Source: a virus
Length of the DNA: 64,000 nt
Virus record (IMG/VR): IMGVR_UViG_3300010885_072825
Location: 62,001 to 126,000 of that record
Reading direction: 5' to 3' (one strand)
Shown: positions 10,431-63,394 of the stretch, piece after piece
Layout: each line of letters begins with the position of its first letter
How positions within the stretch are numbered: position 1 is the first letter of the stretch
The notes under the pieces: model-generated
The model's input: the letters and a program-made list of their open reading frames with translations, nothing else
The model's database searches: none
Told to the model about the DNA's origin: nothing
Program-made: the position numbers and the translations under genes

Positions 10431-10454
10431 TTGGTAACCTCGTTGTTGTGTTTC

Positions 10455-10483
10455 ACAATAGCTGGTTTTCCTAAACTTGTCAA
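10455..10483 (-). promoter_or_regulatory. sigma70-type promoter for rnlA
   Basis: Minus strand -35 TTGACA (10478-10483), 17-base spacer, -10 TATTGT (10455-10460). It lies back to back with the plus-strand late box at 10488. Confidence 0.6.
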
Positions 10484-10487
10484 ATAG

Positions 10488-10494
10488 ATAAATA
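10488..10494 (+). promoter_or_regulatory. late promoter box six bases before a start codon
   Basis: Plus strand GATAAATAGCTAGATG. The box is followed after five bases by the ATG of the HExxH protein and there is no ribosome site between, so the transcript would be leaderless or nearly so. Confidence 0.5.
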
Positions 10495-10499
10495 GCTAG

Positions 10500-10988
10500 A
10501 TGACAACTGCTGAAATCCGAAAAATAATGACTGATTTAGAAACCATTGATTCTGTGGAAAATTCAGTTGATCAAGTTTCTACAGCATTGACAGATTTCAT
10601 TTCAGTTGGACGACCCTTATTAGAGTCATCTGAAATTGATTATGAAGAATTAAGCAAAAAATTTGTTCGATATGTTATGCGTGGATTGAAATTGACTGAC
10701 ATACCACGCATTGAATTCATTACTAAAAAAAGGGTAGAAACCCAACAACCATCGTTTGGTTCATTCAATCCAAATGACAATTCTATTGTGGTCAGCTGTT
10801 TGAATCGTCATCCGGTTGACGTGTTTAGAACTTTGGCACATGAATTGATTCACTACAAACAAAATATTGCCGGTGAACTGAGTACTGATTCTGGTTCAAC
10901 GGGCAGTCGACATGAAAATGAAGCAAATGCCGGGGCTGGTATTATAATGCGAAACTTTGCTAAAAAATACCCCGGCTACTTTAATTGA
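10500..10988 (+). CDS. HExxH zincin-like protein, possibly packaged in the virion
   Basis: 162 residues. The motif TLAHELIHYKQ (about 118-128) contains HELIH, the zinc-binding and catalytic pattern of zincin metallopeptidases. A downstream HENEANAGAGIIMR offers a third ligand (Glu). The N-terminal 25 residues (MTTAEIRKIMTDLETIDSVE) look like a separate amphipathic leader, similar to those of two other plus-strand proteins here, and contain an L-x-E site like the T4 prohead protease cleavage sites. The substrate is unknown. It is transcribed against its neighbours from a late-type box directly before the ATG. Confidence 0.6.
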   Translation: MTTAEIRKIMTDLETIDSVENSVDQVSTALTDFISVGRPLLESSEIDYEELSKKFVRYVMRGLKLTDIPRIEFITKKRVETQQPSFGSFNPNDNSIVVSCLNRHPVDVFRTLAHELIHYKQNIAGELSTDSGSTGSRHENEANAGAGIIMRNFAKKYPGYFN

Positions 10989-14536: not shown

Positions 14537-15853
14537 TCAATCAAAATCTGCTAGCAGATCAATGTAAGCATATGCCCCAAACGGCGGAACAATACGAGAT
14601 CCATGTCCTCCTGCGATGATCCAAAGAGTGTCACAATAATCGGACGATCCCCAGCCATAATTTGGATATCCATCTGTGAACCAAATTGCTTTCTTTGGCA
14701 AGATTTCATTTTGTTGCCAATATTCCCAAACAGCTTCAAAGCTAGTACCGCCGCCGCCTCGGCATTCATAACTTAGAAACTCTTCTTTGTTTTCATGTGT
14801 AAATTCCTGGTAGTTATGGATGCTAGTATCGAAGCACAAAACACCAATTTTAAACTGAGAATATACTTCCATGATTTCCCAGACTTCAGTCAAAAATTTC
14901 CTAGCAACTTGATCACTGATTGATGCACTCATATCAATTGCAACTTGTACATCAATTGTTTCATCCACATTAAGAACCGGCATGAAAATACTAGTACCCG
15001 TAAACCTGCGATTGGGTTCCATAAAGGTATAATCGTCTGACATACAACTGTTGATAGTTGATTGCAGTAGTTCTCGCCAATTGATTTCTGGTGTTAGAAA
15101 ATTGTTGAGCAGGCGTTGCATGCCAGCGGACATATTACCTGCCGCTGCGGCTGCTGAACTAATCAGCGCTGACTTGATATGTTCTCGAATTTCTTCTAGA
15201 TCAGCATCACTAATTTTAGGCATACTTTGCCCACCCGGATTTTTGCCATCTTCAGGGTCACTGGATCCTGCCATGGGAATATGAACATCCAGAGTCAGCT
15301 GTTTCTTGACCTTTCGTTTCATCAAGTCATCATAAACAGCTTCACTGGTCCATAGGTTGGGTTCACAATAGCGTTTGTCATAGAGTCCAACGCGTTGTTG
15401 ACCTTTGGTGGCAGAAGTTGTATCAACCACGATTTCTGTGGGCATCTTACCAATGCCTTCTTGTTCCAGAAATCCATTGACAATAAAATCCGTTGCCATG
15501 TTCCAATAGTCTGGATCGCGCAGTGAACGACGTCCAAAATGTTCAAATGCACAGTGAAGCAGCTCATGACAAAACACAAACATGAGTTCTGATGGTGCAC
15601 CAGACTGTTCAACGGCTAGTCCTAAAACAAAGTCTGCATTGTAATAGATCTTTCGACCATCAACTGCCATCGTAGGACACCATCCTACATCGGTGGCATC
15701 TACTAGACCAAAATGCATTGCCAGATTTCCCAAGAAGGGGTGTTTCATAAGTAGACTGATTCTGGCCTTAGTAATTTGACGCCGAGCTAGTTCTGACTTC
15801 TGACTTTTTTCAGCAAGTGTCAATTCTTTTGTTTTTGTTACTGCTTTTGCCAT
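14537..15853 (-). CDS. VWA-like metallopeptidase (DUF2201 type), partner of the MoxR ATPase
   Basis: 438 residues. The N-terminal half has FVFCHELLHCAFEH with HELLH at 96-100, a zinc-peptidase-like site. The C-terminal half is a von Willebrand A fold with the MIDAS start VAIDMSASIS and later WFTDGYPNYGWG. This combination is the DUF2201 family, usually encoded next to a MoxR AAA+ ATPase, as here, where the two genes overlap by one base (TAATG). MoxR/VWA pairs are thought to act as chaperones or remodelling machines. The role in phages is unknown. Confidence 0.8.
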   Translation of the reverse strand: MAKAVTKTKELTLAEKSQKSELARRQITKARISLLMKHPFLGNLAMHFGLVDATDVGWCPTMAVDGRKIYYNADFVLGLAVEQSGAPSELMFVFCHELLHCAFEHFGRRSLRDPDYWNMATDFIVNGFLEQEGIGKMPTEIVVDTTSATKGQQRVGLYDKRYCEPNLWTSEAVYDDLMKRKVKKQLTLDVHIPMAGSSDPEDGKNPGGQSMPKISDADLEEIREHIKSALISSAAAAAGNMSAGMQRLLNNFLTPEINWRELLQSTINSCMSDDYTFMEPNRRFTGTSIFMPVLNVDETIDVQVAIDMSASISDQVARKFLTEVWEIMEVYSQFKIGVLCFDTSIHNYQEFTHENKEEFLSYECRGGGGTSFEAVWEYWQQNEILPKKAIWFTDGYPNYGWGSSDYCDTLWIIAGGHGSRIVPPFGAYAYIDLLADFD

Positions 15854-17043
15854 TAGACGATCAATTCTGCAAATTCTTTGGTGTATTCTTTCCAGATAGG
15901 CAAATCACGCCCACGGTATTGTGTTGGTTGGTGTGGGTGCCCCAAAATACCTTTACATCCCATAACAGCCAGCTCACGTTCAAAATTCCTTAGGATGAAT
16001 GTTAAATACGTGTTGGCCATTTCCTTCAGTTTTTTAACTGAATCCGGATTGGGGTTGGCTGCGGCTTTTTTATCCAGTTCAATAAGTCGATAAATGCAGC
16101 TTGTGATCAAGCTATATACAATACCAATGTCTTTAATATCTAGTTTAGTGAGTTTACCAGTCAAAATTTCATCTGGGTTGGGAAGTTTGGCGGCCTGTTC
16201 TCGATACTTCATGAACTTCAAACCACGACTTGCTCCCACTGTGCCATTTACCAGTGACGTCAGTGTTGATTCAGTGTTCCAGACCTTTTCGTGAATATTG
16301 CCCGCATCATCCACAGTCTGGAGGAACTTGCTGACAAATTCCCAGGAACGTGGTGTAGCAAATGCTTCTGAATCCATGTTCTCACCAAACGAGTTTAGGT
16401 CGTTGGGCTGGAAGCAAATATATCCCACAACATCTCGGTGGATTCGGTTTTGCATGGCCCACATCTTCCAGTCTTCAAAAGTCGTTTGAAGTGTGACATG
16501 GGTGAACCTGTTCCTGAGAGGAGTTGGCATTTTATAGCTAACGCCCTGGTCCTTCAGTCGATTGCCTGCTGCAATAATTGCACATTGTTCTGGCAGTTGG
16601 TAATTGCCAATACGTCGGTTTAGAATCATTTGATAGGTAGCTGCTTGTACACTGGGAGGAGCAGCTGAAATTTCATCATAAAATACCAGTGCTCGACTAG
16701 CTTGGTCAACTGGTAGGTCACTGGGATTACTCCAGCGGAATTCCTTTTCAACCAATGGCACCCCGGTATCATCACGCACTAGTTTACCATCAGCATCAAA
16801 TACTTTTACTTCTGCTAGATAGGGAATGCCTCGAACATCTGTAATATCCAACAGTGGCAATCGAATATCAATAAGTGGTCGATTTTGTTTTTTCGCTGCT
16901 TGCGCAACAATATCAGACTTACCAACACCTGGCCCAGCCCAAATCATAAGAGGACGTTTCATATCGATACAAACGTCGATCATTTCAGCAAGTGCTGCTG
17001 GTCCTACTGAATCACTGATATCAATCGTATTACCTTTAGACAT
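15853..17043 (-). CDS. MoxR-family AAA+ ATPase
   Basis: 396 residues. Walker A is GPGVGKSD (37-44) and Walker B is VFYDEIS. A sensor-1 region (CAIIAAGNRLKD) and an arginine-rich RFTHVTL segment follow in the order of AAA_5/MoxR proteins. It presumably uses ATP to remodel a target together with the VWA-metallopeptidase encoded one base downstream. A sigma70 promoter with a perfect TATAAT lies 32-59 bases before the start, so the pair is probably expressed early. Confidence 0.85.
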   Translation of the reverse strand: MSKGNTIDISDSVGPAALAEMIDVCIDMKRPLMIWAGPGVGKSDIVAQAAKKQNRPLIDIRLPLLDITDVRGIPYLAEVKVFDADGKLVRDDTGVPLVEKEFRWSNPSDLPVDQASRALVFYDEISAAPPSVQAATYQMILNRRIGNYQLPEQCAIIAAGNRLKDQGVSYKMPTPLRNRFTHVTLQTTFEDWKMWAMQNRIHRDVVGYICFQPNDLNSFGENMDSEAFATPRSWEFVSKFLQTVDDAGNIHEKVWNTESTLTSLVNGTVGASRGLKFMKYREQAAKLPNPDEILTGKLTKLDIKDIGIVYSLITSCIYRLIELDKKAAANPNPDSVKKLKEMANTYLTFILRNFERELAVMGCKGILGHPHQPTQYRGRDLPIWKEYTKEFAELIV

Positions 17044-17074
17044 TCAAATACCTTTTTTCTCGGGTTGTATGTCA

Positions 17075-17102
17075 ATTATATGGTAACTTTTTTGTTTGTC
17101 TA
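17075..17102 (-). promoter_or_regulatory. sigma70-type promoter for the MoxR-VWA pair
   Basis: Minus strand TAGACA (17097-17102), 16-base spacer, TATAAT (17075-17080). Confidence 0.65.
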
Positions 17103-17113
17103 CCTGACTAGTA

Positions 17114-17536
17114 TCAAAAAGTGCAAAAGGCTCGAACATTTCCACTGGATAATTGGAATTCAAAAGCTGCTTCTGGATTCCAGAGAAACATAGTGCCTGA
17201 TTTGAAAAACCAGGGTCCTGCTATGTAGCGATTCAAACCAATTATGACTTTGGGTGTCATTTCAGCTTGGAATTCTCGATAGGTTTTTGTTTGAAGTTCA
17301 ACTGCAATAGGTGGCCAGTGTGGGGACAATAATTCAAATCCGAATTTGGTTAACTGCCAACTCCTGTTTACCCAAACTAGGTCAGCTAATTCCTTGATTC
17401 GTTTTGCGTGTTCATCGGGACCCCGGTCAGTCAATTCCTGCAAAATAGGATTCAAGTCATTGATTATTTCAGTAACTTCCTGTCTAGATATTGCCTGTGG
17501 AAAACGATCACTCACCTTCTTTGATTTCAACTCCAC
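17114..17536 (-). CDS. hypothetical protein
   Basis: 140 residues. Soluble, with a central SWQLTKFGFELLSPHWPPIAVEL and a C-terminal PWFFKSGTMFLWNPEAAFEF that resemble a small phage DNA-metabolism protein, but I do not recognise the family. The start overlaps the end of the preceding gene by 29 bases. Confidence 0.55.
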   Translation of the reverse strand: MELKSKKVSDRFPQAISRQEVTEIINDLNPILQELTDRGPDEHAKRIKELADLVWVNRSWQLTKFGFELLSPHWPPIAVELQTKTYREFQAEMTPKVIIGLNRYIAGPWFFKSGTMFLWNPEAAFEFQLSSGNVRAFCTF

Positions 17537-17804
17537 TGTTTAAAAGAAAAACTTGAAATTTAGTTGTTTTAAACATTCGATTTAATTTTTCCGCCAAATT
17601 AAAAGCATGACCCTGATTGGAAAAACTGCTTTTTTTATATTTCAGTGAATTTTCACTCAATAGACTATTTTTAATAGTTCTCAAATTAATGGGTTTGCCG
17701 TCATAGAATACAGCATAAATGCCGGTTGCTGCTAATACCTGTTCACTTTTATAAGTTTTGGGATCCGTATAATTTAATACTACTCGAGGTTTGGGACGCG
17801 ACAT
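17508..17804 (-). CDS. hypothetical basic protein
   Basis: 98 residues, lysine-rich (KYKKSSFSNQGHAFNLAEKL), with no recognised domain. It is preceded by an ATAAATAG box 26 bases upstream and overlaps the following gene, so both probably share a transcript. Confidence 0.55.
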   Translation of the reverse strand: MSRPKPRVVLNYTDPKTYKSEQVLAATGIYAVFYDGKPINLRTIKNSLLSENSLKYKKSSFSNQGHAFNLAEKLNRMFKTTKFQVFLLNSGVEIKEGE

Positions 17805-17829
17805 AAAAACACCATAATGATTATATGGC

Positions 17830-17836
17830 TATTTAT
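17830..17836 (-). promoter_or_regulatory. late promoter box
   Basis: Minus strand ATAAATAGCC, 26 bases before the start at 17804. Confidence 0.45.
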
Positions 17837-17845
17837 TCATTTTGT

Positions 17846-18082
17846 TCAAAAATTTCCACCTTCAAAACTTATATCAATTTGCTCAGATTTTTGAAGTTCA
17901 ATGATTTGATTTTGTAGATCAAGAATTTTAGAACTCAACGATAATTCGCGCGCTAAAACTAGACTTATTGCAGTAGATAATCTTTCTGCTTCCTGTATGC
18001 TCAAACGAATTTCTTTGCTATTTTGATTTTTAGCTGTTTGAAATTTAAGAACAAATTCTTCTATTCCATGATAATTTGACAT
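17846..18082 (-). CDS. short coiled-coil protein
   Basis: 78 residues. The stretch SIQEAERLSTAISLVLAREL to IIELQKSEQ has heptad hydrophobic spacing. It lies two bases from the end of the next gene upstream. The function is unknown. Confidence 0.5.
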   Translation of the reverse strand: MSNYHGIEEFVLKFQTAKNQNSKEIRLSIQEAERLSTAISLVLARELSLSSKILDLQNQIIELQKSEQIDISFEGGNF

Positions 18083-18083
18083 T

Positions 18084-18566
18084 TTATTGCAATTCCTCGG
18101 ATTTGTTTTTTTCTTGATTTACCACATGCGTTGCTTCAAGTTTCGTTTTAAATGGTCCCAAGGTTTGATACTGTTCCAAGGTTGCTTTTTTGGGGGAAAA
18201 TGCAGTTGTCCAGCCATTGGGAAATAAAATTACCCAATAACCAGCCGCATATAATACGTCTGAAGTAGCCGTTTTAGTATAAGTTGGTATTTGCCCCTCA
18301 GTTATATTGAATGGCGCGTGTTTTACCGGGAACCCTGAAATATCACCCAGTTCTTCTGATTTGTTATTGTCAGTTACTTCTTCAATCTGTATTTCTATTT
18401 TGAGCTGTTTTTCCATGTCAGCAAATGATTCAAACGTTTTGCCTTTGGCAATAGACACTCCAATCAGATGGTATGTTTCATTTATCAATGCACAAAGTCC
18501 CTGTTTATTTCCCCCTACTGAAACAATCCAGCTGGTTGTGGATATTGGTTTAAAATCATATCGCAT
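18084..18566 (-). CDS. hypothetical protein
   Basis: 160 residues. The N-terminal 80 residues are beta-rich (TSWIVSVGGNKQGLCALINE), then a segment ending GYWVILFPNGWTTAFSPKKA. No family is recognised. Its start overlaps the end of the exonuclease gene by 11 bases. Confidence 0.55.
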   Translation of the reverse strand: MRYDFKPISTTSWIVSVGGNKQGLCALINETYHLIGVSIAKGKTFESFADMEKQLKIEIQIEEVTDNNKSEELGDISGFPVKHAPFNITEGQIPTYTKTATSDVLYAAGYWVILFPNGWTTAFSPKKATLEQYQTLGPFKTKLEATHVVNQEKNKSEELQ

Positions 18567-29638: not shown

Positions 29639-30871
29639 TCAATCAATTTCTCGAACATCCCATGCTTGCGGACCCCAGCTGGTATATTTTACTTGAACTT
29701 GATTTTGATGTCGAAGACGACCAACAAAATCTTTAGATCTAGCTTCCACAACTTCATTTGATCCAGGATGGATATATGAAATATTATCAAACTGATCCAA
29801 ACATGTGACGGCCAATTGAGGAGTGTTCAGTTTGATTTTGAACACTGTGGCCATTGCCTGAGATCGTTCCCAATCTGATTGAATGTTCTTATAGAGCTCG
29901 TTAAGATCCAGAGGCGCGAATCGCAAAGTATCTTGCCATGGATTGGGTTTGTTGGTTTGATCAACTACTTGAGAAAAATCCATTTTCAAATTTTCCCATT
30001 TTAGTGGACCTGCTCCATGGCGAGTGGCATAGCAGCGGGTCACATATACAGGGGTGATTTCTTTTACTCCCAGTTCAGCCGCAGTATGAATTGCACTGAG
30101 CAGTCCCGTAATCGACCTAGTCACATGGGGAAATTCACCCATAAGTTCATCCAACCCCAGACCCTGTGCACCTTCAAAAATCACAGGTGTATCTTCCCAA
30201 ATGTTGAAAGGGTTGAAATTGGGTTGAATCACTTTGAGAGTTTCTAGCATACGTTTGATCATGGCCCATTCTGAATCAACATTCATCAATGGTACAAATT
30301 TTTGATATTCGGGGAGATGTTCAAATGGTTCTAGTAGTGGTTTGTAATATTCCTGTACTCGCAAAAGACTGAGAGAACTAGTACCATAACAACAATCATT
30401 GAGAACCAACTGCGCTGATGGATCTTGATTTCTAGTTACCGTAGCATTCACACCCAAACCACAGGACCCATGCTTGCTAGTACCTCGACTAATTTCTTGC
30501 AATTGATTATATGCAATATCCCAAATTGTGGTGATGATTGCGCTGGGATGAGCCCAAAAATTATAATGATAGGGACCATCAACATGTTGGATTCCCAATG
30601 CTTGTAATTGATCCCATTCTTTTAGAAATGCAAATGGATTGACGATAAAATTACTAGATAGATAAGTTCTAGATCCAGCAAGTGTTCCAGATCCAAAGTG
30701 ACCAAACACATGACGATGTTGATCTGTTACCACAGTGTGTCCAGCTTGAGCTCCGCCATTAACACGAGCAACTAGTGTATTTTTTGGACCTAACTTTCTA
30801 GCTAGATAATCAGTAATCAAGCCTTTGCCTTCATCACCATATCCAGCACCAATAACAGCATAGTTCGTCAT
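29639..30871 (-). CDS. purA: adenylosuccinate synthetase
   Basis: 410 residues from the ATG at 30871 (CAAGGTGACGTC before it). VIGAGYGDEGKG (6-17) is the GTP-binding loop with catalytic D13; NGGAQAGHTV, GTSKHGSCGLGVNATVTRNQ (split), EGAQGLGLDELMG and VTRCYATRHGAGP follow the family order. The enzyme makes adenylosuccinate from IMP and Asp for AMP synthesis. PurZ, the phage homologue for 2-aminoadenine, is reported to lack this Asp, so normal adenine synthesis is favoured. A perfect TTGACA-N16-TATAAT promoter lies upstream. Confidence 0.88.
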   Translation of the reverse strand: MTNYAVIGAGYGDEGKGLITDYLARKLGPKNTLVARVNGGAQAGHTVVTDQHRHVFGHFGSGTLAGSRTYLSSNFIVNPFAFLKEWDQLQALGIQHVDGPYHYNFWAHPSAIITTIWDIAYNQLQEISRGTSKHGSCGLGVNATVTRNQDPSAQLVLNDCCYGTSSLSLLRVQEYYKPLLEPFEHLPEYQKFVPLMNVDSEWAMIKRMLETLKVIQPNFNPFNIWEDTPVIFEGAQGLGLDELMGEFPHVTRSITGLLSAIHTAAELGVKEITPVYVTRCYATRHGAGPLKWENLKMDFSQVVDQTNKPNPWQDTLRFAPLDLNELYKNIQSDWERSQAMATVFKIKLNTPQLAVTCLDQFDNISYIHPGSNEVVEARSKDFVGRLRHQNQVQVKYTSWGPQAWDVREID

Positions 30872-30894
30872 GACGTCACCTTGAAGTTTCATAG

Positions 30895-35023: not shown

Positions 35024-36025
35024 CTACTTCTGCAAAAATGGCCGGATAGTGGTCATTTGTGGTCGATCCTGTCCATTAACAGGTTCTATTGTTTGGAAAT
35101 AATTACCCCACCAGGGTCCTCCAGCCCAGTAGGTCCATCCCATCCAAACGTCATTATTGGTGGAATAATAAGTTAGCATTGCAGTCAACCCCGACAAACA
35201 GTTGGGATCCGCACTGGCGCCAAACTCACCCACAAATGCTCGGTAATGATTAGCACGTAACCAAGCTGTTGCTGCGGTGAGATTATTGACCACGTCATTT
35301 GGGCTCATACAGGTTGTGCCAGTACCTGAGAAATTACCATCCAAATATTCATGCATTTCAATTGCAAAATTATTTGCAGGATCTTGAATGCCAGTAAATC
35401 CCGCTGCATTAGTTGCGGTCCAATCATGTGCCCCATCCCATCCGGCTCCGGGAATGAGAATCAAATTATTAGCATTAGCTGCTCTAATAGCTGGGATCAC
35501 TGCATTAACAGTTGCTCTCCATCCGGATACATTTTGAGAAGCAGGTTCATTCATTAACCCAAACACAACCTGTTTATCTGATGGCCATTGATTGGCCAAT
35601 TGGGTCCAAAGATTTACAAAAGCTGTGATGGGTACTGCGGCGGATCCAATAGGCTGACCTCGATAGTTTCCAAAATCATGTACGTCAAGAACCACAGTGG
35701 CTCCTGAATACTTGATCATAGCCACTGTGGCTTGCAAACGTGCTAGCTCACCTGGATCCAGTGGACCATTAAGTGTGGGTTGAATGCGTTCCCAAAGAAA
35801 CGGAACTCGAAATACATTGACGCCTTTGCCAACATAATAGGTGACTTCCGCTTGGTTAGGATATGTGTAGTCAAAGAATGGTCTACCAGGTAGTGCTCCA
35901 CCATTAAATTCCGCACCGGACAAATTAACTCCGGTTAGTGGTACAGGGTTAAATGCAGCTGAGCTTGCAGGTGTTGCAAGTGCAAGACTGGTAGCGGATA
36001 AAAGCAGTGCAATAGTGTGTTTCAT
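35024..36025 (-). CDS. secreted GH5-family glycoside hydrolase (cellulase/mannanase type)
   Basis: 333 residues. A signal peptide MKHTIALLLSATSLALATPA ends at the A-S-S-A-A site near residue 24. The TIM-barrel markers of GH5 follow: FRVPFLWERIQP, VVLDVHDFGNYRG, VFGLMNEP with acid/base E160, EMHEYLD, and FVGEFGAS with nucleophile E267. GH5 enzymes hydrolyse beta-1,4-glucans or mannans. Export by the host Sec system is implied. Such an enzyme has no role in standard virion assembly, so it is an auxiliary gene or an exopolysaccharide depolymerase. Substrate cannot be fixed by sequence. Confidence 0.88.
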   Translation of the reverse strand: MKHTIALLLSATSLALATPASSAAFNPVPLTGVNLSGAEFNGGALPGRPFFDYTYPNQAEVTYYVGKGVNVFRVPFLWERIQPTLNGPLDPGELARLQATVAMIKYSGATVVLDVHDFGNYRGQPIGSAAVPITAFVNLWTQLANQWPSDKQVVFGLMNEPASQNVSGWRATVNAVIPAIRAANANNLILIPGAGWDGAHDWTATNAAGFTGIQDPANNFAIEMHEYLDGNFSGTGTTCMSPNDVVNNLTAATAWLRANHYRAFVGEFGASADPNCLSGLTAMLTYYSTNNDVWMGWTYWAGGPWWGNYFQTIEPVNGQDRPQMTTIRPFLQK

Positions 36026-36141: not shown

Positions 36142-37068
36142 ATGCATAATTTATGTCCGGTATGTCAATTTCCTAAAAAACATTCTATAGAAAAACCAAC
36201 AATGCCATCTTTATGGAGTAGAACATGTGGGCAAAAATCATGCATAAAAATTTTAACCCAACAAACTAATTTAGAACAGTTTGGTCATATTTCTAATTTA
36301 CATCGTAAATTAGAAAATGGAAACACTGTACTTCAAGAAACAATGTTAAATAAATATCAAGTTTTTAATGTTTCTCAAATAGATAGTGTTAAACAGAAAA
36401 AACAAGAAACCTGTTTAGAAAATTTTGGAGTACCATGGCCGATGCAATCTGCATTAGTAAAACAAAAATCTGTTGAAACTGTTCTTGAAAAATATGGAGT
36501 CACTAATGTTTCTAAATCTCCATCTGTTATTGCAAAAATTAAACAAACTCAAATTGATAAGTATGGTTGTTATTTTATGCAAACCTCTGAAGGAAAAGAG
36601 TTGTTAAAAAATATTTGCCGAGAAAAATACGGAGTAGATTGGTATTTTAATTCGGAACATTTCAAAACTCAATTAGAAGCTAGAAACCTTGAACTATTTG
36701 GTGTAACTAATCCTTTCTATTCATCTGTGGTACAATCTCAAATAGCTAAAAGAAATGGTAAGGGTAAATCAAAAGAAGAAACTAAATGGTTAGATTCTTT
36801 ATGCATTGATGAAACCTTTCGACAATATCCGATCACAGGAAAAAGTGGGAAAACATATATGGTTGATGGGTTTGATCCGATTACTAATACTGTTTATGAA
36901 TGGAATGGTTCTTTTTGGCATGGTAACCCAGATTATTATGATTCGCATATATCACATCCTGTCAAAAAGAACAAAACGTTTGGTGAATTATATGAACAAA
37001 CTGTTGCTAGAGAACAAGACATGTTAGACGCTGGATACGAACTCATAGCTAAATGGTCAGTATTGTAG
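36142..37068 (+). CDS. free-standing homing-type endonuclease (VSR-like fold) with YG repeats
   Basis: 308 residues. The N-terminal zinc-like part (CPVCQF, CGQKSC) precedes four to five repeats of about 30 residues with the pattern E-T-x-L-x-K-Y-G-V-x-N-x-S-x-S (ETVLEKYGVTNVSKSP), a DNA-binding array. The C-terminus (TYMVDGFDPITNTVYEWNGS, FWHGNP, ELIAKWSVL) resembles the VSR/EDxHD nuclease fold. It lies opposite to its neighbours, is more AT-rich than they are, and overlaps the NAMPT gene by 20 bases at the 3' end. It is probably a mobile homing endonuclease. Confidence 0.75.
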   Translation: MHNLCPVCQFPKKHSIEKPTMPSLWSRTCGQKSCIKILTQQTNLEQFGHISNLHRKLENGNTVLQETMLNKYQVFNVSQIDSVKQKKQETCLENFGVPWPMQSALVKQKSVETVLEKYGVTNVSKSPSVIAKIKQTQIDKYGCYFMQTSEGKELLKNICREKYGVDWYFNSEHFKTQLEARNLELFGVTNPFYSSVVQSQIAKRNGKGKSKEETKWLDSLCIDETFRQYPITGKSGKTYMVDGFDPITNTVYEWNGSFWHGNPDYYDSHISHPVKKNKTFGELYEQTVAREQDMLDAGYELIAKWSVL

Positions 37069-38386
37069 AATTTGCGCGACTACGGATTGTATCTAATGTG
37101 TCATTTACTAAGAGTTTTCCTTCTTTATAATAATCAATCAACAATTTATGATCCAATCTTCCACCTTTGCTACGTTTCCCATTATCAGTGATCGGACTTT
37201 TTACGGTGTCTCTCCATTCATTCCTAACTCGAATAGCAGATGTTTTTTGCGCAAATGAGAAATCATCTCGATTTACATTTTGAAGTAATCCTCCGCCACT
37301 ACCATAAATTACACATTCTGGAGCATACCCCAATTGCTCAACCATTATGGTAAGCTCTTCAAATGTACGTCGATTGATACCATCTCCTTGAATAATACCA
37401 ACATTTTTGAGCACTTTATATCCTTTACTATTAATAGTAACGCCAAAGCCTGCTTCCAGCATATTTAAAATACGCGGAATAACTTCGGTGGGTTCACCAG
37501 AATCCGGGCGCACTACCCATTTAACGCCGGATTCAACAATGCGGTCTCGATATTCATCGCATAGTAGTTGAACTTCTCGATAAATGTCATACCCGTCCAT
37601 TACTGCGGAAATAATAGCACCGGGCTTTGCAAACTTTTCAAGCAATCTATCGAAATATTCTCTGGCGCCATCGATTCCATAACTAGTTTCTACAGAATGC
37701 TCAGTGGCAACAACTGAATATCCTGCCATATCACAATTATAATATTCTCGGGCTGCTACAAGTGCAACTAAATCATCAGTGCCTCGGAAATATAACAGGT
37801 GTGCTAGACCACCAATTTCTGCGGTTTCCCTAGAACTAACACCTCGGCTTGCAAAAGAATGCAAGGAAAATTCCAACATTGTTGGATTATCACTACTCAA
37901 ATCATAAATCTTTTTTAAGTGTTCATAACTAATTCGATCTAAACTTGCAATAGTTGTTGGATACCAAATACCGCGTTGAAGACTAGTTTCAACAAATGAT
38001 GCTAACCAAAATAGTCGGGAATCATCACATTCAACAGTAACAATTGGCGTTAAACTGTTAACCAATGTTCCTTCCGGAACACCTCGAATTGTAAATGGAA
38101 TATATCCATTGTATTTTGATACTAGATATTCCCAATCAGATGTATCAAAAGGCATACCATGCTTGACAGCAATATCTTGTGCAAGTTGAATATTTTCAAA
38201 CGTAATAGGATTCATTAGATTTTTCTTGATCCACATTTGCAGACCAAAAGGCACAATAATCTGATTGGGTTTTCTTGCTTCGATATACGAAAACATAGCA
38301 TTAGTGCCTTCTGGATAGGCATATTTATGAGATAGTTTATAGGAATCTGCATCAAGCAGGAAGGAAATAGTATTCAAAATCGTCAT
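37049..38386 (-). CDS. nadV: nicotinamide phosphoribosyltransferase (NAMPT)
   Basis: 445 residues from the ATG at 38386 (GGGAG eight bases before). DADSYKLSHKYAYPEGTNAM starts the family pattern. FASRGVSSRETAEIGGLAHL, VMDGYDIYRE, VVRPDSGEPTEVIPR, IQGDGINRRTFEEL and SGGGLLQNVNRDDFSFA form the phosphoribosyl and nicotinamide sites. It makes NMN from nicotinamide and PRPP. The next gene upstream encodes the NMN adenylyltransferase that completes NAD synthesis, so the two form a salvage pathway. The length is close to other bacterial and phage NAMPTs (about 460-490). Confidence 0.92.
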   Translation of the reverse strand: MTILNTISFLLDADSYKLSHKYAYPEGTNAMFSYIEARKPNQIIVPFGLQMWIKKNLMNPITFENIQLAQDIAVKHGMPFDTSDWEYLVSKYNGYIPFTIRGVPEGTLVNSLTPIVTVECDDSRLFWLASFVETSLQRGIWYPTTIASLDRISYEHLKKIYDLSSDNPTMLEFSLHSFASRGVSSRETAEIGGLAHLLYFRGTDDLVALVAAREYYNCDMAGYSVVATEHSVETSYGIDGAREYFDRLLEKFAKPGAIISAVMDGYDIYREVQLLCDEYRDRIVESGVKWVVRPDSGEPTEVIPRILNMLEAGFGVTINSKGYKVLKNVGIIQGDGINRRTFEELTIMVEQLGYAPECVIYGSGGGLLQNVNRDDFSFAQKTSAIRVRNEWRDTVKSPITDNGKRSKGGRLDHKLLIDYYKEGKLLVNDTLDTIRSRANSTILTI

Positions 38387-38421
38387 GTTCAAGTCTCCCT
38401 TGAGGTTTAAGTTTAAAATGT

Positions 38422-39603
38422 TTATAGTCCAAGAATTTTAGAAATCACATCAAAATGGTCTTCAAAAAAGGGTTCGCTTGTGATTTCACTAAATGGCAAC
38501 CAAAAAGCAGCATCAGCATCATCAGCGCCTTCAACTTCCGGAAAATTATTAGCAAGCGGACCACGCACATCCGGAAGGTATGTTTGGTCATTGAGTTTAA
38601 AGTGAAACACCTTGCTGTATACTCGACCACGATCAGATCTGTGTGGATGGTCTGCGTCAAATGTGGTTGCAATAGATCCTCGCAATACCGGTTCAGGTAC
38701 CTTGAGTCGAGTTTCTTCACGTAATTCTCGAAGAGCAGCCGACAGCAGAGTTTCATCTGGGTTCACATGCCCACCCGGCATTGCCAACAGACTGTTACCA
38801 ATTTCACCAGCACGACGAATTACCAACACATGTCCTGATTGAGTTACCAGCGCGTCTGCACAGATTTCCTGAACAGGATATTCTGCGTGTCTCTGTCTGC
38901 GTTGTTTGTATTCAACGCTGGATGTAATGTATCTTTGAATCTGATCATATTCATTGTGATCTTCAAATTCCTGCAAAGATTTTAGCACAGCAGGATCCAC
39001 TCGGTTCTTCAAATAAGACCATTTGCTGTCATTAAGCAACACATTGGTGTCTACACCAAAGTAAGCATTTCGAATATCAGTTGCATTCAGAGGATTGAGA
39101 AAACGCACATTCACGTTGCCACATTGTGGGAACAGTTTGAGATAATAGCTGGAGCTGTCTTTGCTGCAACCAATCAAACCGATCTTTCGATTGCGACTGA
39201 CATTACCAAACTTGGTTTCCATAACTTCCTTGACAATGTTTTGTACTTGTGCAAGCCAAAGCTCGTCTCGATAAGTAAAATCTTCGAGTGGTTGAATCAG
39301 CAACTTGCTGTTCGGAACATGTGTAAAGCTATTGCGAATCATGTCTCGACGTTCTGTCCAAGACCAAGGATTGCGTGGATGTCTGGGTCTGTATGCTGAA
39401 CCAATCAAAACCAAAACTTTTTTGGATTTTTTCAGTGCAATATCAATTACTCGCTTGTGTCCAAGATGGAATGGTTGCATACGACCAATAAACACAAGAA
39501 GATCATATTCTTCGTCGTGTAGATTGCCTTCGTAAAGGTCTTCAATTTCAATTATGGGGTTATAGATATCGTCCGAATAGGACGGGGTGTTTTGTGTTTT
39601 CAT
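38422..39603 (-). CDS. nadM: bifunctional NMN adenylyltransferase / Nudix hydrolase
   Basis: 393 residues. The N-terminal domain (about 30-215) has [13 protein letters not shown] (nucleotidyltransferase H-x-G-H) and [20 protein letters not shown], the NMN adenylyltransferase signature. The C-terminal domain has the Nudix box [20 protein letters not shown] followed by ET, as in ADP-ribose pyrophosphatases. The first domain turns NMN plus ATP into NAD; the second would hydrolyse ADP-ribose or NAD-related compounds. The gene is 36 bases upstream of nadV in the same transcript. TTGACA with a -10 overlapping an ATAAATAG box lies in front. Confidence 0.9.
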
Positions 39604-39627
39604 CGTCGAGACTCCCTCGTTACCTTC

Positions 39628-39634
39628 TATTTAT
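39628..39634 (-). promoter_or_regulatory. late box overlapping a possible sigma70 -10 of the NAD operon
   Basis: Minus strand GCATAAATAG, 25 bases before the ATG at 39603. A TTGACA lies 17 bases further upstream (39653-39658), so one site could serve both kinds of polymerase. Confidence 0.5.
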
Positions 39635-39663
39635 GCTCAATTGCCGATTGTTTGTCAACTAAT

Positions 39664-40029
39664 CTAAAGATTATTTTGATTTTCTTTTTGCATCCAAAGC
39701 GTCTCAAATATTTTCAATGATCTAACTTCCAAAGAATTCATTGCAATTCGCCGCCCCTGTTCAATACCAACTTGAATAGCCGCTGCAATAATTACTTCAA
39801 GTGCGTCCCGCCCCTGTTCTTCTAAATCATATGCTAGTGATGTTTGAGTGAATTTTGTTTTAATACCATGTGACACATGTAGACTACCGTGTTCATATCC
39901 ATCATATATGATGTCTTTATCTATATTCTTTCGTTTGAGATCATATGCAAATCTAATAGATTTGATAAAAGGTTTTACCAATTCTTCAAAATCAACCGGT
40001 TGATTATCGGCAGGCCAAGTTTTTGTCAT
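39664..40029 (-). CDS. hypothetical protein
   Basis: 121 residues. Alpha-helical with LVKPFIKSIRFAYDLKRKNI and ALEVIIAAAIQVGIEQGRR. It lies between the sigma factor and the NAD operon in the same direction. Not recognised. Confidence 0.55.
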   Translation of the reverse strand: MTKTWPADNQPVDFEELVKPFIKSIRFAYDLKRKNIDKDIIYDGYEHGSLHVSHGIKTKFTQTSLAYDLEEQGRDALEVIIAAAIQVGIEQGRRIAMNSLEVRSLKIFETLWMQKENQNNL

Positions 40030-40053: not shown

Positions 40054-41475
40054 TCAATTTTCATCATAAACTTTTGCAAGTTCTTTCATTTTAGTGGGAT
40101 TACGAAGCTTTGTCAATGCCTTGCTTTCAATCTGTCGAACTCGTTCTCGAGTCACATTAAACTCACGACCAATTTCTTCTAATGTGTATTCATTCTTTGC
40201 ACCAATTCCGAACCGCATTCGAATCACACGTTCTTCCTTGCTATTCAAACTGTTGAGTACTCTGCCAACCGCTCGGCTTTTGTCAACTGCATTCAGATTC
40301 TCAATTACGTTTACGCTGGATTCATCTGAAATCAGTTCACCAATTGTATTTTCAGAATCTTGACTTGCGGGACGATCCAAACTGGTTGGTTCAATAGCTG
40401 CTCGCTGTGCTTGTATAATTTTCTCCACTGATAGATTGATTAGTGGTGACAGCTCTTCCGCAGATGGTTCTCGACCAGTCTTATAAACCCAGTCACGAGT
40501 TGCCAATTTAATTTTTTTAATATTATCTAGAATGTGTCCAGGAATTCTGATGGTCTTGGTTTGTTCACCCAGTGCTTTCATAATGCCCTGTCGGATCCAC
40601 CAGGTTGCGTATGTGGAAAAACGATAACCCAATTGCCACTTATATCTTTCAACAGCTTTGATGAGTCCAATATTACCTTCTTGAATTAGATCAAGCAGAA
40701 TCTGTTGATTATTGTGACTGTATTTCTTAGCAACACTGACCACTAGACGCAAGTTACTGACCACCATCTTTTGAATGGCCGCATCCTTCAAACTGTTCTG
40801 CGTCTTAAGTGTTCTGACAATTGACCGAAGTTCTTCACTGGTTAAACCGGTTTGATTGACCAGGGTTTCAATTTCAGCAACTATACCAGCAATTGATTCA
40901 GACTGTTCTGTTTGGAATTTTTGCCAGGACAGTGGCAATTGCTTGCTACCAATTTGAGTTTCTGAACCAATGTATTCTTGAATAAAATCAGTTCTAGTGA
41001 TTCCGGATTTTTGAGCCAGTCGAAGCATCGCACCATCACAGGCCGTGATTTTTTGATTCAATCGAGTAATTTGATCAATTAGAGTTGCAATACTAGCTGA
41101 ATTAATTGGCAGATCATTAAATTTCTGTACCAGTTCAGCCTTCTTAATCGTATCTAAAAGATATTCTTTTGCCAGAGATTTTACAATTGCTAGATTTTCC
41201 GGAGTGATATTTGCATCTTCCAGTTCTAGATCAAACACATCAGTTGGTAAAACAGTTTGTTTTTCAATACCATCAATCCAACCAATTATGGTATTAACTG
41301 TGAGTGGGATTGCAAAAAGGGTATCGATAATGATACGCTTACTGTTTTCAATTTGTTGGCTGATTTCAATCTCTTGCTTGTGATTGATCAGCGGCGCCTT
41401 CTTCACATCATTAAGATAAAGTTTAATCGGGTCTTGATACCCCGTTGGGTCTTTTTCTTTGGTCACTGTCTTCAC
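40054..41475 (-). CDS. rpoD: primary-type sigma70 factor (RpoD-like)
   Basis: 473 residues from a GTG at 41475, with TAGGAG nine bases before it. Region 1.2 (IKLYLNDVKKAPLINHKQEI), regions 2.1-2.4 (NLRLVVSVAKKYSH, LDLIQEGNIGLIKAVERYKW, YRFSTYATWWIRQG), region 3 (TIRIPGHILDNI) and region 4.2 (YTLEEIGREFNVTRERVRQI) are all present. It therefore can bind both -10 and -35 elements like a housekeeping sigma. Region 1.1 is lacking. T4-like phages normally carry only the short late sigma gp55, so a complete factor is unusual. It overlaps the o-spanin gene by 53 bases. Confidence 0.9.
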   Translation of the reverse strand: MKTVTKEKDPTGYQDPIKLYLNDVKKAPLINHKQEIEISQQIENSKRIIIDTLFAIPLTVNTIIGWIDGIEKQTVLPTDVFDLELEDANITPENLAIVKSLAKEYLLDTIKKAELVQKFNDLPINSASIATLIDQITRLNQKITACDGAMLRLAQKSGITRTDFIQEYIGSETQIGSKQLPLSWQKFQTEQSESIAGIVAEIETLVNQTGLTSEELRSIVRTLKTQNSLKDAAIQKMVVSNLRLVVSVAKKYSHNNQQILLDLIQEGNIGLIKAVERYKWQLGYRFSTYATWWIRQGIMKALGEQTKTIRIPGHILDNIKKIKLATRDWVYKTGREPSAEELSPLINLSVEKIIQAQRAAIEPTSLDRPASQDSENTIGELISDESSVNVIENLNAVDKSRAVGRVLNSLNSKEERVIRMRFGIGAKNEYTLEEIGREFNVTRERVRQIESKALTKLRNPTKMKELAKVYDEN

Positions 41476-43130: not shown

Positions 43131-43150
43131 ATCTTAAACTAGTTTAAGAT
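43131..43150. repeat. perfect 20-base palindrome at the TnpB stop codon
   Basis: ATCTTAAACT followed by AGTTTAAGAT spans the stop codon of tnpB and is 20 bases from the right boundary of the element. It could be the terminal stem recognised by a transposase or part of an omega-RNA. Confidence 0.8.
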
Positions 43151-44344
43151 ATCACTACTATTATGATTGAGTCTTTGTTTTTTTCCAAGAGAACTATTTG
43201 TGCCCTTGTGTGTTTTCTTAGCTAGAGCGCCCAGACCTCTAGCCAAGATATTACGTGCGGCATTAGTATCTGCGTCGCTGTCGTAACCACAATGTACACA
43301 CACGAAATATTCGCCCCTGCGACTATCTGCATGTACATGCCCACATTCGCTACACATCTGAGATGTATAGGCAGGATTTATCCGAAATACATGAACGTCA
43401 TGTTCAGCAGCTAACTCCTCAATCCGGTTGTTGATATAACTTAAACACCATGCATGGTTTTTATATCCCCAACTTTTACCTGTTTTCATACCAGTTAAAT
43501 TTTCGGTAATCAAATAGTCTATTGCATCAAAATTAATGTCGCGTTTCAATGAATAATTAATTTCATTACGTAAAAAATTTCTAGCTCGTTTTTGTGCTTT
43601 ACTACCATGTTTCTTTGAAGCAACAATATCCATGATTTGATCAATTGGCAATCCCCTTTTGTGTGTGGTTTCCATATGCCCATCATCTCTAGCAATTAAC
43701 TTTTTACGACCAATATCAATTGCTTGAATCTTAGTTATGTCATTGCTCAAATTGACTGTTTTGTGAAAATAAAATCCCAATGACCCGTCATTATTCACTC
43801 GTAACGAATTGGTCTTTAAAACAAATCCCCTGTCAATTAATTTTTTCATATGACGCGTTAACACAAGCGGAATATAAAAATTACCCCGCATGAAGGAAGA
43901 TATTTTAATCCAATACTCACAAATCTTAGTATCTTTTGATTTTTCTATTGAAATAAATCTTGAATCCAGTTCAATATTAACTGAGTTAATATCAACTTGC
44001 AATAGACCCGAATTATATTTTGTCAATATCTCTCGTTGATATTTTTTTAAATTCTCAGAATTCCTAGCTAATTTGACTTTAACTGTAATAGATCTAGCTA
44101 TTGCTACTGCTTGTTTGGCTAAAACTTGACTCATCCGAGCAGGAAATGGCAATGCTGCAACTATTTCTTTGGGAAGAAAGTTTGGTATTTGATCAAAATC
44201 ATATATCAACTTGTTGACTAATTTATGTAATTCAAATTTATATAAGTCGAAAGGAGTATTCAAACGTGTTTGTTTCCCTGTATTCGCCAATACGGGATTA
44301 TAATTACTAATGCGGATATTGTTTTTATTGGGTTTCTTCGCCAT
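43139..44344 (-). CDS. tnpB: TnpB-family RNA-guided nuclease (OrfB of IS200/IS605)
   Basis: 401 residues. The RuvC-like catalytic residues appear as Asp in IQAIDIGRKKLI, Glu in YLITENLTGMK and Asp in YDSDADTNAARNIL. The C-terminal zinc finger is C-S-E-C-G followed by C-V-H-C-G. TnpB proteins use an RNA from the element's right end to cut DNA next to a short motif and are relatives of Cas12. The N-terminal wedge/REC part is more divergent than usual, so the fold there is less certain. It lies in a split phage gene. Confidence 0.88.
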   Translation of the reverse strand: MAKKPNKNNIRISNYNPVLANTGKQTRLNTPFDLYKFELHKLVNKLIYDFDQIPNFLPKEIVAALPFPARMSQVLAKQAVAIARSITVKVKLARNSENLKKYQREILTKYNSGLLQVDINSVNIELDSRFISIEKSKDTKICEYWIKISSFMRGNFYIPLVLTRHMKKLIDRGFVLKTNSLRVNNDGSLGFYFHKTVNLSNDITKIQAIDIGRKKLIARDDGHMETTHKRGLPIDQIMDIVASKKHGSKAQKRARNFLRNEINYSLKRDINFDAIDYLITENLTGMKTGKSWGYKNHAWCLSYINNRIEELAAEHDVHVFRINPAYTSQMCSECGHVHADSRRGEYFVCVHCGYDSDADTNAARNILARGLGALAKKTHKGTNSSLGKKQRLNHNSSDILN

Positions 44345-49762: not shown

Positions 49763-52700
49763 TAGTATCCAACTGCAATATATGTATATGGACGCAATCC
49801 ATAAGATGACGTCTGAGCATAGTGTGTTTGTACTCCACATCCTGAATTACTTAATCCAAAATACTGTATCACAACCATAGCGCCACTAGTGTTACAAGTT
49901 GCTGTTACAGAAAACACAGTATTTGGGAATGTGATTGGAAAAGTGATAGTACCATTACCACCACCATCCGTAGTCCCTTGACCCCATTGAATGATGCAGC
50001 CACCAGGTAATGTAACATAACCATTACCGGTCAATGATTGAGCACCGCCTCCGCTGCCTGATGTATTGATCCAAATGTCACCAGCAGCACTGGCAGTGGG
50101 AGTAGATCCCGTAATGAATACTTGCCCTCCGGAAGTATAGCCAGCAGTAACATTTCTCAATACCGGACTATTAGCTGTGGTTACGATACTAGTAGTATCT
50201 GAACTACTAATACTAGCTGAACCAGATACTGCACCTGCCAACGCAATGGTTTTTCCAGTTATATATCCTTTGACAGCATATTGGGTGGGTGCAGTTGTGT
50301 GATCATAGCTAGCATTGACATGTGTTAGTGAAGGATCGTCGCTGACTTCCTGCAATTGAACTCCAGCTACGACGCCATTCCTAGAAAATGGACCAATTTC
50401 ACTAATACCACTCAAATTAATATTATTGGCGTTTAGTGTGATTGTACCAGTAGCAAAATCCACCCCAAAATAAGGACCAACTGAAAAATTACCAGTATTG
50501 TCAATTGTCACATAGTAGACTTTACCAGGATAATCTGAAATAGTCTTTTGCGTTAAATCTGGCACACCACCATAGGCTGGCAATGCATTAAATGTGACTC
50601 CAGATCCAGGATATTCTAACGCCAAACTACCAGTACTGATGTAACTCACATTATAAAATGCAACGGTTGTTCCAGAGCTGACACTTACGATTGCTGGTTG
50701 AATTTGCACATCATAAGTTGTACCACTTACCAGTGTGGCTGCAATCACATTATAAAACACGCTATTGATTAATGCACTGGTACCATTTTGCGGTTTGTTA
50801 GAAAGTCCACTAATTCTCAACACGTTTGGAGATTGTAAGATAACCGTTCCTGTTGCGCTTGTACCAGATCCAGCAGCAAAACTTACTGAAGGAACTGATG
50901 TATAATTCGATCCACTGGTGTTCATTTGAACAGTGCTGACGCCACCCAGATTTACTATTGCGTTGCCTGATGCTCCAGAACCGCCGCCGCCACTGAATGA
51001 AACCGGGAAATTAGCAGAATATCCTGATCCAGCAACATCAATCCTGACACCAGCCACCGTGGAATTGTATGTATTTGCTACTGTACCGGAAGCATATGCC
51101 ACGGGGTAATATCCACTTGCTCTAATTCCCTGTGTTCCAAAATCCACCACACTATTGGAAATATTGGCTACACCTCCAGATCTAGCCCAAAATCCCACGC
51201 TGGAGAAAGTAGTAAAGCAACTGACGAACTGTGCATAACCTTTATTGATAATCAAATGCCCAATACCACCTTGGTTAATTTGGGTATAACTATCACATAC
51301 CATACTGGTTATAACAGACGCATTACTTAATACTTGTCCATCAATTCTAGTACCGGATCCTGCCCCATTGGGATTGACCGCAGTAAATCCAGAACCAGGC
51401 GCTGAAATATTATATGGTGGTAGAGTAGTAATCAATTTACCTGTAGTATCATATGGGCCAGTAATACTAGAACAATTCTGTATATATGGAGATACCGTAA
51501 TAGTTAATGGAGTTGGTGGAGGAACACTAACCGTTGGTACGAAGGAATATTTACTACCACTATTAGTTATTGTAAAACTACCGATTATATTTGCTACGAC
51601 GGTGGCTATTGCTGTTGCTCCTACACCCGTAACATCACTTATTGTAACAAATGCTCCAGTACCAGTGGTATATCCAGACCCAGGAGTTACTACATTGATT
51701 GCAGTAATAACACCACCTACGGTACGTACCGTCAACACTGCATCATCTGATGTTATACTTCCACTAGCAGTAGCAGTTGGACTAGTGTATCCAGATCCTC
51801 CGGAGGTCACTGTGACTACTTGAATACCAGTTACCAAGTTAGCAGTTGCAGTAGCTTGTACTCCGGTTAAATCTACCGGAGGTTCAATGAATACCGCGGG
51901 AGCAACTGAATAGCTGCCCGGTGACCAAGCCGCAGATATTGAACTTACGATACCTGATCCCGTTACCAAGTTACCACTCATTGTTGGCAAACCAATTGCA
52001 CAACGGAATGCCACAGCAGCAGCAGGCGCTTGATGATCCCTAACAGTAAACCCATAAAAGTAGGTTGCCGAATCAGTATGGAACACATCTAATTGCGGAT
52101 ATAGTGGACGAACCGTAACTCGGCGCAGGTTATCTCCCACTATACTGACTCTAGCTGGAACATAAAGCGGATTAGCTTCGGTGTAATCACCACTGGCCAA
52201 TATGATTGTGTCGCCAGCTGCCACAGCGGCTAATGCTGCTTTTATTGTTCGATAGGGTTTGTTGACTGTGCCATTATTAGCATCATTACCGGCGGTGGAA
52301 ACATAAAGTCTATTAGATACCGTGGCATCTGCACTGTACAGTGGTACTTGTCGTATTGGAGTTCCGCCAGAACTGTTTGTAAAATAAAAATCTACTCCAT
52401 CAAATTCCACAGCTCCCAATTGAGGTGTGGCAGTTAATGTGCCAATTTGATAAGTCATTGGTGCTGTATTTGCAGTACCACCACCTATTGTTACTGGACC
52501 AGAAAACAGAGATTTTCCTGAAACAGCCAATTGGTTACTGGTTGGGGCAGTATTGATCCCCAACTGATTAAATTGTGCTCTATTACTGTATATGTTTGCA
52601 AAACGTTGTGAAGTAGATCCCAAATTTCTAGTATTATCAGAATCTGGCAAGTTATTTTGATTACTCTTAAATAAAGTGGAATCACCAATAATTGTTGTAC

Positions 52701-61549: not shown

Positions 61550-63394
61550 ATGACTACAATTGGTATTGACTTGGGCACAGGGAATTCCTGTGTTGCTGTG
61601 ATTGAAGACGGTAAAGCACGAGTAATTGAAAATTCAGAGGGTGCTAGAACAACTCCTTCAGTTGTCGCGTTTACAGATTCTGAAATACTCATCGGACAGC
61701 CCGCTAAACGACAAGCAGCAACGAATCCTGCTAGAACAATTCACGCTGCTAAAAGACTTATTGGCCGCAGTTTTGCAGACAAAACATTAAAAAATACTGT
61801 CAACATCCTACCCTATAAAGTAGTAAAGAACAAAAATGGCGATGCTGCCATTTCAGTAGATGACAAAGTTTTGAGTCCCGAAGAAATTTCTGCAAAAGTA
61901 CTCATTAAAATGAAGGAAACTGCTGAAGAATATTTGGGCAAAAAAGTAACTGATGCTGTTATTACATGCCCAGCTTATTTCAATGATGCACAGCGACAAG
62001 CTACTAAGGCCGCTGGGCAAATTGCCGGTCTAAATGTGCTCCGAGTAATTAATGAACCAACCGCTGCCAGCTTAGCATTTGGTTTAGATGGCAAAAAGTC
62101 AGGAAAATATGTTGTCTGGGACGCTGGTTCTGGAACATTTGACGTAAGCGTCATGGATATTTCAGATGGTGTTTTTGAAGTTCTCAGTACCAACGGTGAT
62201 GTTACACTTGGCGGTGAAGATATCGACCATCTAATTGTGGAATGGGCTATCAAAGAATTTGCAAAAGATAATTCTATTGATCTCAAAAAGGATGCCATGG
62301 CCCTGCAACGAGTTCGTGATGCTGCTGAAAAAGCCAAAATTGAACTCAGTTCAACTCTTCAAACTGAAATCAACCTACCCTATATTTCAGCTGATGCTAC
62401 TGGACCCAAGCATATGGTACTTAAACTGAATCGAGCTACTCTGGAAAACATGATTCAGCCACTTGTCGCTCGCATGATTGAACCCGCTAAAAAAGCACTC
62501 AAAGATTCTGGACTTGATGTTGGACAAATTGATGAAATCATCATGGTCGGTGGTACTACTCGTATCCCGGCAGTGCGTGAAGCTGTTAAAACATTGTTTG
62601 GTAAGGAACCCAACTATTCAGTCAATCCCGACGAAGCTGTTGCTATTGGTGCTGCCATCCAGGGATCAATTCTAAAGGGTGATATTAAAGACGTTCTACT
62701 CCTGGATGTTACACCACTTACACTGGGAATTGAAACTCAGGGAGGGGTGTTTACGCCTCTGATTGAACGCAACACCACTATCCCAATCAAGAAGCAACAA
62801 ACCTTCTCAACTGCAACTGACAATCAACCAGCTGTTACTATACGAGTATTCCAAGGAGAACGTCAGTTTGCAAACGACAACAAACTGCTGGGACAGTTTG
62901 ATCTAACTGATATTCCTCCAGCTCCGCGTGGAGTTCCACAAATTGAAGTAGCATTTGACATTGATGCTTCTGGCATTGTCAGTGTTTCTGCAAAGGATCT
63001 GGCAACCAATAAAAGTCATGCCATTAAGATACAGGACAATGGCGGCCTGTCAGAAGATGATATTAAGCGTATGATTGCAGAAGCTGAAGCTCATGCTGCT
63101 GAAGATGCTGCTAGAAAAGAACTAGTAAATGCAAAAAATACAGCAGAAATGATCATCAACTCCACTGAAAAATCACTAAAAGAAGTGGGTGACAAACTAG
63201 CTGAAACTGATCGCCTGGACATTGAAGCTGCTATTGCGGCTTTAAAAACAGAACTTGAATCGGATAATCTAGTAGCGATTCAGGAAGCACAACAAACAGT
63301 CTTGGCTCGATCACAAAAGATTGGTGAAGTAATGTATGCTGAAACCAAGTCTGCTGATTCAGTACAAGATGCTGAATTCACCGAAGTTAACTGA
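61550..63394 (+). CDS. dnaK: phage-encoded Hsp70 chaperone (DnaK)
   Basis: 614 residues. [20 protein letters not shown] opens the ATPase domain, with [15 protein letters not shown] (166-180), the phosphate-2-like loop [11 protein letters not shown] (190-200), [11 protein letters not shown] and the substrate-binding domain ([20 protein letters not shown]). A helical lid completes it, ending DAEFTEVN without the EEVD-type tail. It folds or holds client proteins using ATP. Two loop positions differ from E. coli: the second Thr of GTTNSC is Gly and DLGGGTFD is DAGSGTFD. No DnaJ or GrpE is seen nearby. AAAGGAGAACATATG supports the start. Confidence 0.93.

Follow-up and report, generated by a model that had tools for sequence, protein, structure and literature searches.

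A divergent NadM-NAMPT gene pair of a T4-like phage, predicted to form a late-transcribed NAD salvage module

A 64,000-nt stretch of viral DNA (the window; positions 62001-126000 of the 139,590-nt IMG/VR virus record IMGVR_UViG_3300010885_072825, which is incomplete) carries two adjacent minus-strand genes that very probably constitute a phage NAD salvage module of the KVP40 NadV-NatV or NARP2 type, co-transcribed late and keeping or restoring NAD. The first encodes a NadM-type bifunctional NMN adenylyltransferase/Nudix hydrolase (NatV-like; 38422-39603, 393 aa), assigned from family and PDB matches. The second encodes a nicotinamide phosphoribosyltransferase (NadV/NAMPT; 37049-38386, 445 aa from its ATG), apparently of the PRPP type and without the Namat clamp. 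A sequence-only reading had placed both enzymes at 37049-39660, and indeed both genes are found there; the remainder, as far as 39660, forms a leader carrying a Shine-Dalgarno sequence and a late-promoter-like motif. The pair is a divergent, well-preserved further example of an already known phage pathway, and the earlier remark that such NAD pathways are known in phages is correct; for NARP1 and NARP2 a role against NADase defences has been published. The presence, integrity and family of the two genes, their catalytic residues, the absence of the clamp, gene order, correlated divergence and promoter-motif enrichment were all computed here.

The contig bears the marks of a T4-like phage: a UvsX-like recombinase, a single-strand binding protein, a terminase and a T4-type tail sheath stabiliser. 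Since the terminase has its nearest counterparts in the jumbo phages Phosso, Atu_ph07 and PA5oct (42-46% identity), the IMG/VR record is probably a piece of a larger genome. A nucleotide search of phage records turned up no relative of the region. Upstream of the pair, on the same strand, lies a 121-aa ORF (39664-40029, minus) for which family and phage searches gave no match. On the other side, a DUF7487/homing-endonuclease-like gene (36142-37068, plus), a neighbour outside the pathway, runs towards NAMPT and shares the final 20 bases of that gene.

The ATG of NAMPT sits behind the Shine-Dalgarno sequence AAGGGAGA, located in the 35-nt intergenic stretch (38387-38421, minus); the mechanical ORF list begins the gene two codons earlier, with a TTG at 38392. 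The product scores 469.6 bits against NCBIfam NF006629 (cut-off 405) and matches the NAPRTase and NAMPT_N families of Pfam (PF04095, 5.3e-38; PF18127, 6e-18), PHROG 448 (1e-124) and PDB 7yqo (2.7e-104), with the solved Xanthomonas and mammalian enzymes matching across residues 8-412. When aligned with 63 viral relatives, the protein keeps the residues that bind nicotinamide, ribose and phosphate, together with the nicotinamide-binding Asp and the catalytic His. Indeed, across the 64 NAMPT and NadM sequences compared, the catalytic residues are kept in all or nearly all. The protein lacks a variable loop near the C-terminus and is for that reason 17-36 residues shorter than eight aligned phage relatives; the last conserved helix motif is present despite this loss, so that a broken or truncated NAMPT was rejected. 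The short length, together with the 20-base overlap of the 3' end with the convergent endonuclease gene, is what might be expected of decaying or recently captured genes that have no function in this phage, NAMPT having been clipped by its neighbour. This we regard as highly improbable, given the open frames, the Shine-Dalgarno sites and the retention of all catalytic residues and of the terminal helix motif.

The NadM-Nudix protein has its nucleotidyltransferase domain at about residues 32-215 and its Nudix domain at about residues 245-390, and its gene, like that of NAMPT, is preceded by a clear Shine-Dalgarno sequence. It scores 365 bits (E 3.4e-109) against NCBIfam NF003786, below the equivalog cut-off of 397, and is therefore a divergent member. 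The match to PHROG 395 is 3.5e-65 and that to PDB 2qjo is 3.5e-59, the latter covering both domains; both solved NadM-Nudix enzymes (2qjo and 2qjt) match over the two domains. The architecture is that of PRK05379, full length and two-domain, with the nucleotidyltransferase motifs and a complete Nudix box, and these motifs and the box are kept in the alignments with 63 viral relatives. The Nudix type of this family is known as an ADP-ribose pyrophosphatase, and by analogy the domain most likely converts ADP-ribose to ribose-5-phosphate and AMP. Two reviews, PMC9503650 among them, instead stress cleavage of NAD by the Nudix domain as a control of NAD level. The sequence-only reading had supposed that the extra domain might remove ADP-ribose-derived signals: ADP-ribose pyrophosphatase activity is plausible from the known activity of the family, but this sequence lends no support to the destruction of cyclic ADP-ribose signals. 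With a complete Nudix box whose key residues vary little or not at all among 64 relatives, the Nudix domain could be imagined as the main anti-defence part, removing ADP-ribose-derived immune signals or RNA NAD caps, with NAD synthesis secondary. We think this quite unlikely. In the NadM-Nudix family this domain always comes joined to the adenylyltransferase and in the company of NAMPT, an association that speaks for a role in NAD metabolism; moreover, the known activities are on ADP-ribose or in NAD level control, with no evidence for cyclic substrates. PADLOC returned one weak Nudix match and nothing for NAMPT.

Namat, the transferase of the NARP1 pathway, is a close relative of Nampt, and a 2026 structural study (PMC12774641) attributes its use of ADPR-PP to a clamp, comprising a GSX..TRD motif, in which residues 3 and 7 are aromatic, and a variable loop. 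In the corresponding NAMPT segment, GGGLLQNVNRD, the two clamp positions are Gly and Asn, as in ordinary Nampt. Lacking the Namat adenine clamp, this enzyme should therefore use PRPP, as a PRPP-type rather than an ADPR-PP-type transferase. No match to PF13793 or TIGR01251, models that have not been validated for Adps, was found in the incomplete contig for an Adps (Prs-like) gene or PRPP synthetase. PRPP is thus probably supplied by the host, on which the pathway would depend. Because the clamp is absent, an NMN adenylyltransferase is adjacent and the contig has no Prs/Adps-like gene, we assign the module on sequence grounds to classical two-step salvage, from nicotinamide and PRPP to NMN and then NAD (KVP40/NARP2 type), and not to NARP1. 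Homology, conserved catalytic residues and conserved gene order lend good support to the earlier proposal that the two enzymes build NAD from nicotinamide. A NARP1-like pathway, in which the transferase makes NAD directly from ADPR-PP, would account for the shared Nampt/Namat catalytic core; it is nevertheless extremely improbable here, for besides the missing clamp and the lack of an Adps/Prs-like gene in the contig, the adjacent NMN adenylyltransferase would be unneeded. NARP1/Namat membership was accordingly ruled out by the clamp motif and the absence of a Prs/Adps-like gene from the contig.

The gene order is widely conserved. Among the 80 best IMG/VR viral loci, 75 have a same-strand NAMPT downstream of NadM-Nudix; for the five exceptions the sequence covered reaches just 1.5-5 kb downstream, and NAMPT may lie farther away. 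The arrangement of NadM-Nudix with a same-strand NAMPT after it, in some cases with small ORFs between, also occurs in phages LucasX, RcXuper, Cp1R7A-A1, BUCT-ZZ01, B23, DLP6 and vB_OspM_OC. This agrees with a published survey in which NadV was present in every phage with NadM (PMC9503650). Moreover, protein distances of NadM and NAMPT correlate (Mantel r = 0.67, reached by 0 of 2000 permutations), a correlation to which common phage ancestry contributes. The 35-nt gap, the common strand and the identical order in relatives support a predicted NadM-NAMPT operon, as the sequence-only reading had supposed.

The heptamer ATAAATA is the core of T4-type late promoters. It occurs at 39628-39634 (minus), 31 nt before the NadM start; its first base differs from T4's TATAAATA, and this copy is a putative late promoter, identified by sequence only. 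In the window, 17 copies of ATAAATA fall in the 120 nt preceding ORFs of 110 aa or more, about ten-fold above the 1.6 expected from the motif density across the whole window, and the ORFs so preceded include the terminase and a tail fibre gene. In related IMG/VR loci the motif lies upstream of NadM in 33 of 79 cases and of NAMPT in 3 of 63, against 83 of 724 for all ORFs together; it precedes NadM in 14 of 51 non-redundant loci and, when KVP40 and the named phages are included, in 35 of 88 (1.9 expected). Being common before NadM and rare before NAMPT, it predicts joint late transcription, and the pattern fits one late promoter before NadM with NAMPT read on the same transcript. A scan for sigma-70 promoters and terminators gave counts not above shuffled background (27 versus 22.2 +/- 4.6 and 6 versus 4.7 +/- 2.3, respectively). 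The predicted late timing contrasts with phage phi-St2, whose NAMPT was transcribed almost immediately upon infection (PMC5107563). The occurrence of the motif before NadM, and rarely before NAMPT, in many T4-like phages is a fresh lead: it predicts one late transcript, a timing that would suit NAD repair after defence firing. The 17 sites could also serve for mapping the late regulon of this phage.

Several other genes of the phage deserve record. An RpoD-like sigma factor comprising regions 1.2 to 4 (window 40054-41475, minus) ends some 450 bases before NadM begins. A TnpB/Cas12f-like protein (window 43139-44344, minus), recognisable only C-terminally (about residues 240-390), has ATAAATA 93 nt upstream; a second TnpB-looking ORF was seen by eye at contig 9347-10585. 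The window also encodes a full-length DnaK chaperone (61550-63394, plus; NF001413, 915 bits, above cut-off), and a DnaJ-like ORF lies at contig 50613-51503. A glycoside hydrolase family 5 cellulase with a signal-peptide-like N-terminus (PF00150, 1e-53; window 35024-36025, minus) has relatives in only 2 of 50,697 phage records, one being LucasX, a phage that likewise carries a close NadM-NAMPT pair. As an indicator of the host the cellulase gene was uninformative, giving a single 45% match in Marinoscillum pacificum. The GMP reductase gene, outside the window at contig 15766-18264, is split into two ORFs. The first has residues 1-185 followed by a segment starting CFVPGQQVLTENGL, which resembles an intein N-terminus; the second opens with an intein C-terminus-like ...DHSYNIDGIVVHN and continues with SQCSTRRVAGVG, the remaining GMP reductase, and a homing-endonuclease-like ORF lies between the two pieces. 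We take this arrangement to resemble the known 'fractured gene' split inteins of the IMPDH-1 type. A divergent adenylosuccinate synthetase-like protein (window 29639-30892, minus) matches PHROG 1211 at 4e-55 and falls far under the NCBIfam PurA and PurZ cut-offs; together with GMP reductase it could serve purine interconversion or be linked to 2-aminoadenine.

Read from homologues or from sequence, the two reactions, the Nudix substrate, the late timing and the anti-defence benefit would combine as follows. The pair would be transcribed together from the T4-type late promoter before NadM. NAMPT would convert nicotinamide and PRPP to NMN, and the NadM adenylyltransferase domain would add AMP from ATP to give NAD. 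The Nudix domain would split ADP-ribose to yield AMP and ribose-5-phosphate, and from the latter the host could regenerate PRPP. The benefit would be NAD kept or restored in the infected cell, most useful once a host NADase defence has cleaved NAD. According to published reports, NARP1 and NARP2 refill the NAD pool once defence NADases have acted (PMC11984713, PMC12300627), and by this analogy counter-defence against NADase systems is a plausible, and the best, reading of the role of the pair. The pair would, of course, also benefit phages where no defence acts. Its help against NADases might then be incidental to a general metabolic supply meeting ordinary NAD demand in redox reactions, nucleotide synthesis and a long infection cycle. 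Such a supply role accords with the thymidylate synthase, GMP reductase and adenylosuccinate synthetase-like protein of this phage, and the phi-St2 authors interpret NAMPT/NMNAT as boosting NAD production for metabolism (PMC5107563). However, searches of the contig revealed neither an NAD-dependent DNA ligase nor a sirtuin, and the published NARP work links such pathways to NADase defences; we therefore give this explanation appreciable weight but consider it the less probable one. Counter-defence and general NAD supply are not mutually exclusive. A search of the contig for other NAD or ADP-ribose genes (PnuC, Macro, NADAR, SIR2, NAD-dependent ligase and Tad2-like) found none. More tentatively, and with considerable doubt, the counter-defence role might extend to a full loop recycling both NADase products, in which Nudix would yield ribose-5-phosphate, host Prs would turn it into PRPP, NAMPT would join this with the released nicotinamide and NadM would complete NAD. 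Under a late phage promoter, such a loop would act once late (structural) proteins had set off NADase defences.

The closest functional precedent is KVP40, whose NadV and NatV are described as a functional salvage pathway (Lee et al. 2017, as cited in PMC9503650 and PMC7139368). The two enzyme types and the domain fusion are the same, and NatV is 36% identical to the NadM-Nudix protein here. However, the annotation of KVP40 shows no NadV in the 4 kb flanking natV on each side, whereas here the genes are adjacent with NadM first, and a T4-type late-promoter motif stands before NadM. NARP2 (NAD reconstitution pathway 2, attributed to Osterman et al. 2024) reportedly makes NAD through Nampt and an NMN adenylyltransferase instead of through ADPR-PP. 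It has the same type of enzyme pair as the present module, for which anti-defence activity is only predicted. A review describes NARP2 only as using 'alternative metabolites'. NARP1 (Adps-Namat) is alike in its Nampt-like catalytic core and in its outcome, the restoration of NAD; in contrast, the present module has neither Adps nor the selectivity clamp, and would use PRPP plus an extra adenylylation step. Finally, Xanthomonas phage LucasX, Rhodobacter phage RcXuper, Mesorhizobium phage Cp1R7A-A1 and others have the same order and strand, with proteins about 36-44% identical to those described here, although these are different phages with different surroundings, and in several of them small ORFs lie between the two genes.
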